Shown in pieces: positions 1,876 to 4,911 of a stretch of DNA of 52,053 bases. Both the position numbers and the translations under genes were made by a program. Below the pieces are notes generated by a model. It worked only from the letters and a program-made list of their open reading frames with translations. It did not search any database and was not told the DNA's origin. How positions within the stretch are numbered: the first letter of the stretch is position 1; the number at the start of each line of letters is the position of its first letter. Source of the DNA: Chryseobacterium gleum (lineage in GTDB: Bacteria; Bacteroidota; Bacteroidia; Flavobacteriales_F; PHOS-HE28); the NCBI GenBank assembly GCA_945872795.1, contig CAMCAZ010000021.1, positions 1-52,053 on the forward strand, given 5' to 3'.

Positions 1876-3303
1876 ATGGCCCTCAGTCGTTTCTGGACGC
1901 TCATCCTCATCCTCAGCATCAGCTACGTGCTGATCATGCTCGCACTGGGCAGGCAGTACACCCTTGGCAGCCTAGTGAACGGCAAGCAGGGCGAGGCCCT
2001 GGTAGTGGCCGAACTGGACAGCGCGGCGCTGGGCGGTACGGCGCTGCTGGCGGCGATCAAGGCCAGCGGAGATGCGGGCGTGCAACGCGGCGATACGCTG
2101 TACGTGATGAACGGCACGGGGGTGGTGAAGGCCACGATGGGCAGCCAGCCGGCGGACGGCCTCTTCGCCACCTGCCGCAACACCATCACGGACCTGTGGC
2201 TGCCGCTGATCGGTTACCTCACCTTCTTCTGCGGCCTGCTGAACCTGCTGATCGATTCGCGGGCCATGGAGAAGGTGGCGCGATTCCTGTCGCCGGTGTT
2301 CCACAGGGTCTTCCCCGAACTGAGGAAGGACCACCCGGCCTACGGTTTCATGACCCTGAACTTTGCGGCCAACTTCCTGGGGCTGGACAGTGCGGCCACG
2401 CCCTTCGGCCTGAAGGCCATGGAGAGCATGCAGGAGGACAACACGGACAAGGACCGGGCGACGAACAGCCAGATCATGTTCCTGTGCCTGCACGCGGCAG
2501 GCCTGACGCTGCTGCCCACGAGCATTATCGGCTACCGGGCGGCGCAGGGTGCGGCGAACCCGGCGGACATCATGATCCCGACGATCATCACCTCCTTCGC
2601 TGGTACCCTGGCGGCGCTGTTCATGGTGGCGGGGAAGCAGCGTATCAACGTGTTCAACTGGCCGGTGATGCTCACGGTGCTGGGCATAAGCGGCGTCATC
2701 GGCGGGCTGATGGTGTACATCGGCGGGCTGAGCGGGGTGGCCAAGTTCCACTTCACGGACAACCTGAGCAACGGCATGCTGCTCACCATCATCGGGCTGA
2801 TCGTGGGTTATGCCTTCCTGGTGGAGCGCTACTTCACGGCCAAGGGCACGAACATGTTCGACAGTTTCGTGCACGGCGCGAAGGACGGTTTCACCACGGG
2901 CCTGCGGGTGCTGCCCTACATGCTGGCGATGCTGGCGGCGCTGAGCATCTTCCGGAACAGCGGGCTGATGGGCATCGTGATGGACGGCCTCTCCTGGGTG
3001 ATGGCGCTGATGGGTGTGAGCAAGGAGGTGATCGATGCGATCCCGGTGGCGCTGATGCGACCCTTCAGTGCGGGCGGTTCGCGCGGCTTCATGCTGGATG
3101 CGATGAAGACCTACGGTCCGGACAGCCTCACGGGCCAGCTGAGCTGCCTGTTCCAGGGCGCGGCCGAGACCACCTTCTATGTGGTGGCGCTGTACTTCGG
3201 CAGTGTGAACGTGAAGAACAGCCGCTACACGCTGGGCATCATGCTGCTGGCTGATCTGGTGTGCGTGATCACGGCCATCTTCGTGGCGCAGCTGTATTTC
3301 TAG
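1876..3303 (+). CDS. SpmA-SpmB fusion, nucleoside-recognition (gate) domain membrane protein
   Basis: A 475-residue polytopic membrane protein whose two halves correspond to the spore maturation proteins SpmA and SpmB, joined in one chain. The first half (about 100-250) contains the segment LNFAANFLGLDSAATPFGLKAME, typical of SpmA. The second half (about 290-470) contains RPFSAGGSRGFMLDA and QGAAETTFYVVALYFG, typical of SpmB and of nucleoside-recognition domains. A periplasmic loop (about 30-95) follows the first transmembrane helix. In Bacilli the separate proteins affect spore core dehydration; fused versions occur in non-sporulating Bacteroidota with unknown role. I chose the ATG at 1876 because the frame upstream is antisense to the OmpA gene and a -7-like element lies just before it. 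Confidence 0.85.
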   Translation: MALSRFWTLILILSISYVLIMLALGRQYTLGSLVNGKQGEALVVAELDSAALGGTALLAAIKASGDAGVQRGDTLYVMNGTGVVKATMGSQPADGLFATCRNTITDLWLPLIGYLTFFCGLLNLLIDSRAMEKVARFLSPVFHRVFPELRKDHPAYGFMTLNFAANFLGLDSAATPFGLKAMESMQEDNTDKDRATNSQIMFLCLHAAGLTLLPTSIIGYRAAQGAANPADIMIPTIITSFAGTLAALFMVAGKQRINVFNWPVMLTVLGISGVIGGLMVYIGGLSGVAKFHFTDNLSNGMLLTIIGLIVGYAFLVERYFTAKGTNMFDSFVHGAKDGFTTGLRVLPYMLAMLAALSIFRNSGLMGIVMDGLSWVMALMGVSKEVIDAIPVALMRPFSAGGSRGFMLDAMKTYGPDSLTGQLSCLFQGAAETTFYVVALYFGSVNVKNSRYTLGIMLLADLVCVITAIFVAQLYF

Positions 3304-3330
3304 TGTTTGGAAAGAACTGCAAATCCCCCC

Positions 3331-3583
3331 CCGCAGCCGCTGTAGCGTCGCCCGAGGCCTCGGGCCCACTGGGTCGACCTGCGCCGTGATAGGGTGAACG
3401 ATGACAACGAATGCAACCCGCAGCCGCTGTAGCATCGACCCACCGGGTCGACCTACGCGGTTAGAGGGTGAATGTTGGAACTGCGAATTCCATTCGCAGC
3501 CAACGTAACAACGACACACTGGGTCGACCTGCGCTGTGACAGGGTGAACGATGAACAGCGAATGCAACCCGCCGCCGCTGTAG
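3331..3583. repeat. Degenerate palindromic repeat cluster, about 3.2 units
   Basis: This gap holds three degenerate repeat units beginning near 3331, 3418 and 3494 and the start of a fourth at 3569. Shared blocks are CCGCAGCCGCTGTAG, CTGGGTCGACCTGCGC and AGGGTGAACGATGA. Each unit carries an inverted core; in unit 2, TCGACCC (3435-3441) pairs with GGGTCGA (3445-3451) and flanking GTAG pairs with CTAC. Unit 1 has an added CCCGAGGCCTCGGG palindrome. The cluster resembles REP/BIME-type extragenic repeats. The region codes for nothing convincing, and its last partial unit runs into the promoter of the SET gene. Confidence 0.75.
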
Positions 3584-3588
3584 ATTCG
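3581..3588 (+). promoter_or_regulatory. Possible -7 element of the SET gene (TAGATTCG)
   Basis: TAGATTCG matches TAnnTTTG at all but one position and ends 6 nt before the ATG at 3595. Its TAG comes from the GCTGTAG block of the upstream repeats, whose other copies read TAGCGTCG and TAGCATCG at the same place. Confidence 0.4.
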
Positions 3589-3594
3589 CGCTCC

Positions 3595-4146
3595 ATGAAA
3601 GCCAGCAAGTTCGCCCAGCGCAGTTCCAAGATCCACGGGAACGGTGTGTTCGCCACGGAGACCATCAAGAAGGGGGAAGAGATCGTGGAGTACAAGGGCA
3701 GGATGATCACCCACGCCGAAGCGGACGCCCTGCACTTCGGCGACATCGACACGGGCCACACCTTCCTCTTCACGCTGAACGAGGAGTACATCCTGGACGC
3801 GAATACGAAGGGCAACGTGGCGCGGTGGATCAACCACAGCTGCGAGCCCAACGCGATCGCCTTCGTGCACGGACATGAGAGCGAAGACCTGCGCAAGGAC
3901 CGCGTGATCATTGAGGCGCTGCGCGACATCAAGGCCGGCGAGGAGATCACCTACGACTACGGATTCGAGTTCGGGGTGCCGTACACCAAGGAACTGATGG
4001 CCATCTGGGCCTGCCGCTGCGGTTCGCCGAAGTGCACGGGCACCATGCTGAAGCCGAAGAAGGCCAAGGTGGTGAAGCCCGCCGCTACGAAAAAGAGCGC
4101 GGCCAAACCGGCGAAGAAGAGCGCGAAGAAGGCGGCGAAGAAGTAA
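3595..4146 (+). CDS. SET-domain lysine methyltransferase with histone-H1-like tail
   Basis: A 183-residue protein with a complete SET plus post-SET arrangement. Visible motifs are GNGVFA (about 15-20) for SAM binding, RWINHSCEPNA (about 81-91), GEEITYDYGFE (about 115-125) with the catalytic Tyr, and a CRCGSPKCTG post-SET zinc cluster (about 139-148). The last 30 or so residues are almost only Lys, Ala and Pro, like histone H1 or Hc1-type nucleoid proteins. The family transfers methyl groups from SAM to lysine side chains. The bacterial substrate is unknown; the tail could bind DNA or be an automethylation site (inference). The ATG at 3595 begins right at the domain; a longer reading from 3472 would translate the upstream repeats and is rejected. 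Confidence 0.9.
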   Translation: MKASKFAQRSSKIHGNGVFATETIKKGEEIVEYKGRMITHAEADALHFGDIDTGHTFLFTLNEEYILDANTKGNVARWINHSCEPNAIAFVHGHESEDLRKDRVIIEALRDIKAGEEITYDYGFEFGVPYTKELMAIWACRCGSPKCTGTMLKPKKAKVVKPAATKKSAAKPAKKSAKKAAKK

Positions 4147-4260: not shown

Positions 4261-4911
4261 ATGAAAAAGTCCCTCCTCGTCCTCGTCGCGTGTGTCCTTG
4301 GCAGCCTTCCCATCCAGGCCCAGGACGATGCACGGTCCAAAGCCATCGTGGACAAGCTGATGACGCAGGCCAAGGTCTGGACCAGCTTTGAAGCGGACTT
4401 CAGCAGCCGCCTGCAGAACACCAAGGACAAGCTGGATGTGAAGCAGGAAGGCACCATGAAGGTGAAGGGCAAGAAGTTCCGCCTGGTGCTGGACAAGAAC
4501 ACCATCATCAACGATGGCGTGACGCTCTACACCTACAACAAGGACGCGAACGAGGTGAGCCTGAACGACCCCAAGGAGATGGACCAGGACCTGGACCCCA
4601 GCACGCTTTTCACCCAGTACGAGAAGGGCTTCAAGAGCCAGTTCGTGGAGGAGAAGGCCGATGCGGCCGGGGTGATGACCCAGGTGGTGAAGCTCTTCCC
4701 GCTAGACCCCGCCAAGAAGCCCTTCCACACGGTGGTGCTGACGGTGGACAAGGCCAAGACCCTGCCCCGGAGCATCCAGGTGCTGTATAAGGACGGGAAC
4801 GTGGTGACCTACACGCTGAAGAAGTTCACGCCGAACGTGGAACTGGCCGATGCCCTCTTCACCTTCGACAAGTCGAAATACCCCGGCGTGGAGGAGAACG
4901 ACATGCGCTGA
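4261..4911 (+). CDS. LolA-like outer membrane lipoprotein carrier
   Basis: A 216-residue periplasmic protein. The signal peptide MKKSLLVLVACVLGSLPIQA is followed by a LolA/LppX-type half-barrel: SFEADFSSRLQ opens the first strands, GTMKVKGKKFRLVLDKNTIINDGVTLYTY forms the middle strands, and LFTFDKSKYPGVE closes the chain, as is typical of Bacteroidota LolA-like proteins. LolA shuttles lipoproteins from the inner membrane to the outer membrane. The ATG at 4261 is chosen because it starts the signal peptide and follows a -7 element directly. A hairpin at 4952-4973 probably ends the transcript. Family call is firm; that this copy is the main lipoprotein carrier is inferred. Confidence 0.85.
   Translation: MKKSLLVLVACVLGSLPIQAQDDARSKAIVDKLMTQAKVWTSFEADFSSRLQNTKDKLDVKQEGTMKVKGKKFRLVLDKNTIINDGVTLYTYNKDANEVSLNDPKEMDQDLDPSTLFTQYEKGFKSQFVEEKADAAGVMTQVVKLFPLDPAKKPFHTVVLTVDKAKTLPRSIQVLYKDGNVVTYTLKKFTPNVELADALFTFDKSKYPGVEENDMR

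Follow-up and report, generated by a model that had tools for sequence, protein, structure and literature searches.

The frame at 3595-4146 of the window (the whole stretch of DNA analysed here, 52,053 nucleotides) encodes a genuine, probably active bacterial SET lysine methyltransferase, as judged from its motifs and relatives, and the gene is a core gene of its Flavobacteriales genus. On balance, we lean towards a single-domain SET methyltransferase that has been stably inherited in this one genus after lateral exchange and that carries a disordered polycation tether. In such a protein, the SET core would bind S-adenosylmethionine, the post-SET zinc cluster would complete the lysine channel, and the enzyme would add one or two methyl groups to lysines in a basic protein that the cell itself makes. 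Through its 34-residue tail, a disordered polycation, the enzyme would cling loosely to nucleic acid or acidic partners, irrespective of sequence, and so stay close to nucleoid- or ribosome-bound substrates. We infer catalysis, the degree of methylation, nucleic-acid tethering and the nature of the substrate from sequence and a structural model. The SET enzymes so far described in bacteria are for the most part effectors directed at host histones, which gives a SET gene that belongs to the core of a genus its interest.

Table 1 Features of the SET locus (positions in the window).
Feature	Position	Strand	Basis
Gate/nucleoside-recognition membrane protein, conserved upstream neighbour (start approximate)	1879..3303	+	PF07670; adjoins SET in most genus loci
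Intergenic array of about three 76-bp units, 5' of the SET gene	3317..3590	+	Repeat search, Tandem Repeats Finder
SET-domain protein lysine methyltransferase gene (putative), 183 aa + stop	3595..4146	+	Single open frame; PF00856, E 4.9e-27
SET domain (residues 15-123; SAM-binding GNGVFA and NHSCEPN; Tyr120/Tyr122 of GEEITYDY)	3637..3963	+	Pfam, 49 relatives, AlphaFold
Post-SET zinc cluster CRCGSPKCTG (residues 140-149; Cys140, 142, 147 and Cys83)	4012..4041	+	Cys invariant in 49 relatives
34-residue Lys/Ala/Pro tail (residues 150-183), predicted disordered from 158	4042..4143	+	Sequence; pLDDT; not conserved
Tandem repeat in the DNA for the tail end (short; periods of 24 and 12 bp)	4088..4143	+	Tandem Repeats Finder, repeat search
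LolA-like lipoprotein carrier, conserved downstream neighbour	4261..4911	+	PF03548; adjoins SET in most genus loci

The reading frame on the forward strand is uninterrupted over 183 codons and ends in TAA. An alternative upstream opening at 3472, which would add 41 residues, was rejected: the added codons are read-through of the 76-bp intergenic repeat, and relatives align with the protein from residue 1-9 only, so that 3595 is the likelier start. Comparison of all frames with three relatives gave no sign of a frameshift or assembly artefact behind the tail, which continues the reading frame of the SET core up to a proper stop. The 76-bp units upstream hold a GTAG...GGTCGACC palindrome (also given as GTAG...GTCGACCCACCGGGTCGAC) and seem to resemble GTAG-type REP elements; single copies of the palindrome repeat occur at several other places in the genome, which also encodes one Y1-type transposase (G000:C11).

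The catalytic core is well defined. PF00856 matches over its full length (94.8 bits against a cut-off of 22.4, E 4.9e-27), and the only other Pfam match at E up to 1 is a weak one to SAF. The motifs quoted in the earlier note are all present (GNGVFA at residues 15-20, NHSCEPNA at 80-87, GEEITYDY at 115-122 and CRCGSPKCTG at 140-149), as are the general patterns NHSCxPN (80-86) and GExxxYDY (115-122), the latter with its catalytic tyrosine, and the zinc-cluster pattern of CxCx4C plus the cysteine of NHSC. Cys83, Cys140, Cys142, Cys147, Asn80, His81, Ser82 and Tyr122 are, among others, invariant in 49 sequences, and Tyr120 is kept in at least 90% of the 49 relatives. The AlphaFold model (mean pLDDT 82.7) is confident for the SET/post-SET part, with the SET domain mostly above 80. 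Its best Foldseek match is MLL1 (E 4e-14), which identifies a SET fold, and its fold neighbours in the PDB are MLL1-4 at about 30-34% identity (MLL1 about 33%). By sequence, the best PDB match is yeast COMPASS Set1 (E 1.5e-22), with MLL also near; relatives found by sequence and fold further include G9a and NSD enzymes. The full SET plus post-SET enzyme described in the earlier note is thus borne out by Pfam, the motifs, the invariant cysteines and the predicted fold, and the structure prediction that it had proposed as a check returned a confident SET/post-SET fold followed by a disordered tail. SET enzymes with a tyrosine at the F/Y-switch position generally add one or two methyl groups; here this position is Tyr120, the same as in MLL1, which suggests that the enzyme may be a mono- or dimethyltransferase.

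The SET gene is present in 42 of the 44 other genus genomes, in one of them only as a contig-end fragment, and the two genomes without it are 72% and 82% complete. Core identity across the genus is 55-76%, and the window's genome carries one copy. Tandem SET pairs occur in 12 genus genomes (L006, L105, L111-L114, L117-L122); in 11 of them the second copy falls into a single well-supported clade and has a near-neutral, HER-type end that is not basic, a difference in sequence that suggests another role for the second tandem copies than for the first. The window's genome also encodes a second, very distant SET protein (L002, G000:C27:39167-39499; a weak match, 26% identity), and proteins like it are scattered across the class. 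The gene neighbourhood of the genus loci (Table 1) holds no clue to the substrate.

Outside the genus, the closest relatives belong to the Xanthomonadales (up to 64% identity over SET plus post-SET), and in a phylum sample only 2 of 394 genomes, the window's own included, have a match with E at or below 1e-20. A tree of 103 cores, built on only 147 columns, unites the genus in a single group (support 88) that adjoins the Xanthomonadales, with a Comamonadaceae set apart (100). Since the nearest outside relatives are Xanthomonadales and the gene is hardly found elsewhere in the phylum, lateral transfer is likely, and exchange with a Xanthomonadales-like lineage, in either direction, would be the simplest account of the tree. 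With a gene that is core to the genus, occurs in Xanthomonadales too and has relatives in a Comamonadaceae set, the substrate should be one of the bacterium's own proteins. That the protein is secreted and methylates histones of a host, as NUE or RomA do, with the basic tail as its nuclear localisation signal, is extremely improbable. What speaks for such an effector is that the protein's nearest neighbours among solved structures are histone methyltransferases of eukaryotes and that NCBIfam gives a weak AnkI/LegAS4 match. However, this match covers the SET part only and scores 58 bits against a cut-off of 550, so that membership of the AnkI/LegAS4 (RomA) effectors was rejected; Pfam finds no ankyrin repeats or other effector parts in the SET protein, the neighbours are housekeeping genes, and no secretion genes were noted among those examined.

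The tail (residues 150-183, TMLKPKKAKVVKPAATKKSAAKPAKKSAKKAAKK) contains 14 lysines, 9 alanines and 3 prolines. Against the window background of 3.8% Lys, 14 lysines in 34 residues have a probability of about 9e-12; among the window's other frames of at least 90 aa, none has 8 or more lysines in its last 30 residues. The pLDDT is below 50 over residues 158-183. The Lys/Ala/Pro-rich end of about 30 residues that had been read from the sequence is therefore real and its lysine content is not due to chance. In its composition and disorder it shares a trait of H1-like (Hc1/HC2) proteins; Pfam finds no Hc1 or HC2 family match in the SET protein. The pattern KKxxKKxxKK occurs in the SET tail only within its own genome, and a backward control likewise gave 1 match, so that this pattern tells nothing either way.

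How the tail varies among relatives is the key to its interpretation. The part after the post-SET cluster ranges from 7 (TMLKPKR) to 49 residues in 54 genus copies. Tails of at least 25 residues are found in only 4 of the 54; three of these are Lys/Glu-rich, and only the window's is Lys/Ala/Pro-rich. In the nearest relative the core is 76% identical and the tail has 12 residues, ending in TMLKPKKRNSAA. A separate basic end of 20 residues, of the GKKYKAFVKANPDWNK type, is conserved in a large set of genus copies, and Variovorax tails are long and Lys-rich, reaching 71 residues. Mapping the state 'at least 25 tail residues' on the tree requires at least 9 changes: long Lys-rich tails arose repeatedly, and those that arose separately are nearly always Lys-rich. 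Net charge is positive in 122 of 130 tails, including all 33 of the Xanthomonadales group, and the seven non-positive genus tails are all on second tandem copies. With variable length and constant positive charge, the tail is best described as an appendage that keeps evolving on top of a shorter basic end, which is itself conserved. Because many orthologues manage with the 7-residue TMLKPKR, a long tether cannot be essential.

These data bear directly on whether the long tail has any use. The most probable use is to tether the enzyme to nucleic acid. The main rival to this is a tail without any use: it could be a neutral or nearly neutral low-complexity extension without a role, grown by slippage from the short basic end KPKR. 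The DNA coding the tail contains 24/12-bp tandem repeats, which makes lengthening by slippage likely and which a purely neutral origin explains too. The rarity of long tails in the genus and their freedom to differ in length and letters, down to the 12 residues of the nearest relative, fit a neutral extension as well. Against it stand the lysine-richness of the separately arisen long tails, the persistently positive net charge and the conservation of that other 20-residue basic end in many genus copies. We regard a neutral tail as possible but less likely than not. That a tail so changeable should look so suggestive is a warning against inferring function from composition.

A tether has precedents in other bacteria. 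Ku and HupB need their Lys-rich C-terminal domains to interact with DNA, and TopA needs its own to be processive (PMC7398561); in mycobacteria, HbhA and HupB have Lys-rich tails that are methylated in vivo (PMC8467707), and TopA tails of this kind have been described as resembling histone H1 (PMC7398561, PMC8467707). These examples make it conceivable that the SET tail, too, acts as a tether or is a target of methylation. By analogy with the tails of TopA and HupB, it is plausible that the SET tail helps nucleic-acid binding.

Much less probable is the self-modifying chromatin protein of the earlier note, in which the enzyme would methylate its own H1-like tail and so tune DNA binding. What keeps this hypothesis alive is the type III effector NUE of C. 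trachomatis, which methylates H2B, H3, H4 and itself, the automethylation affecting two lysines near its Lys-rich C-terminus and appearing to raise its activity (PMC2904774), together with the methylated HbhA and HupB tails of mycobacteria (PMC8467707). The supposed precedent that NUE methylates histone-like proteins was mistaken, since NUE does not methylate Hc1 (PMC2904774); it is C. pneumoniae cpnSET that has been reported to do so (PMC3980110). In addition, Hc1 (PF07432), which the earlier note had proposed to look for as a separate gene in the same genomes, is found in 0 of 45 genus genomes. Loss of the basic tail in close relatives had been named in advance as evidence against the proposal, and most close relatives, the nearest included, indeed have no long tail. 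A dedicated self-modifying chromatin protein is thus unsupported and, in our judgement, very unlikely; the tail is rather a changeable, positively charged add-on.

Other proteins of the same genome have segments of similar composition. Topoisomerase I (L124, G000:C2 about 25048) has a Lys/Ala-rich C-terminal tail like the lysine repeats of actinobacterial TopA. A DksA/TraR-like zinc-finger protein (L125, G000:C14 about 57257-58400) has an H1-like N-terminal region rich in Lys, Ala and Pro, and regions of this kind, roughly 100-300 residues long, are found throughout most of the genus as well as in numerous other Bacteroidia (L131-L180). A small protein near an HU gene (L127 153-497 (-), G000:C16) has a Thx-like start followed by Lys/Ala/Pro repeats and a weak HC2 match that is below the cut-off. 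Neither of the two HU genes of the genome has an H1-like tail. We considered whether the SET and DksA-like genes go together and rejected this: of 20 class genomes outside the genus, picked for their long open frames, almost every one carries the Lys-rich extension, and a close SET protein was not found in them. The DksA-like extension is widespread in Bacteroidia without SET and is therefore not tied to it.

A different arrangement is seen in the Burkholderiales-type loci (L038-L082, Comamonadaceae/Burkholderiales): in 43 of 45, the SET gene and a topoisomerase III gene are divergently oriented, and the topoisomerase has a basic linker, usually one rich in Lys and Ala. In the majority of the 43, this linker runs into SWIB-like sequence; SWIB is confirmed by Pfam in L066 only, and a few closed copies (L048, L049, L056 and L074) end without it. 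The arrangement recalls the SET, SWIB and topoisomerase set of Chlamydiae, where the three occur together and a joint chromatin role has been proposed (PMC6426960). SWIB is found in 0 of 45 genomes of the genus, so that the Burkholderiales link cannot be carried over directly.

One could accordingly propose that the SET enzyme methylates other Lys/Ala/Pro-rich proteins, namely the TopA tail and the DksA-like and Thx-like proteins. The presence of such segments in the same genome and the divergent topoisomerase III with its basic linker would fit this, but the DksA-like protein occurs in many Bacteroidia without SET, leaving no specific co-occurrence, the genus has no SWIB, and in this genome the SET gene does not adjoin the TopA, DksA-like or Thx-like genes. 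We consider these targets unlikely. The wider version, a tail-methylation system in which SET would methylate the Lys/Ala/Pro tails of itself, topoisomerase I, the DksA-like and the Thx-like proteins, is more doubtful still. If true, such a system would tune DNA and RNA binding in this Flavobacteriales genus, and the SET, topoisomerase III basic linker and SWIB-like arrangement of the Burkholderiales would be its second version.

Compared with known systems, the SET protein is closest in structure to MLL/SET1-type H3K4 methyltransferases, which are its best PDB matches by both sequence and fold; unlike them, it is bacterial and has no other domains or partner proteins. NUE and cpnSET of Chlamydia are likewise bacterial SET lysine methyltransferases, and NUE has its automethylated lysines near a basic C-terminus, a likeness drawn from published descriptions; in contrast to the chlamydial setting, the genus has no Hc1. 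The literature searched held no characterised SET protein of this subfamily from Xanthomonadales or Bacteroidota. The Xanthomonadales proteins (Dyella, Lysobacter, Stenotrophomonas) have the same single-domain layout with a short basic end, but their tails are usually 7-15 residues, none is a Lys/Ala/Pro tail as long as the window's, and their neighbours are different. The Variovorax/Comamonadaceae proteins share the SET plus post-SET layout at about 43-52% identity, and many have long Lys-rich tails, which are of a Lys/Glu/Asp kind unlike the window's. Finally, in the actinobacterial TopA, HupB and HbhA, Lys-rich tails are attached to a topoisomerase, an HU protein and an adhesin, whereas in the window the tail is carried by a putative methyltransferase.
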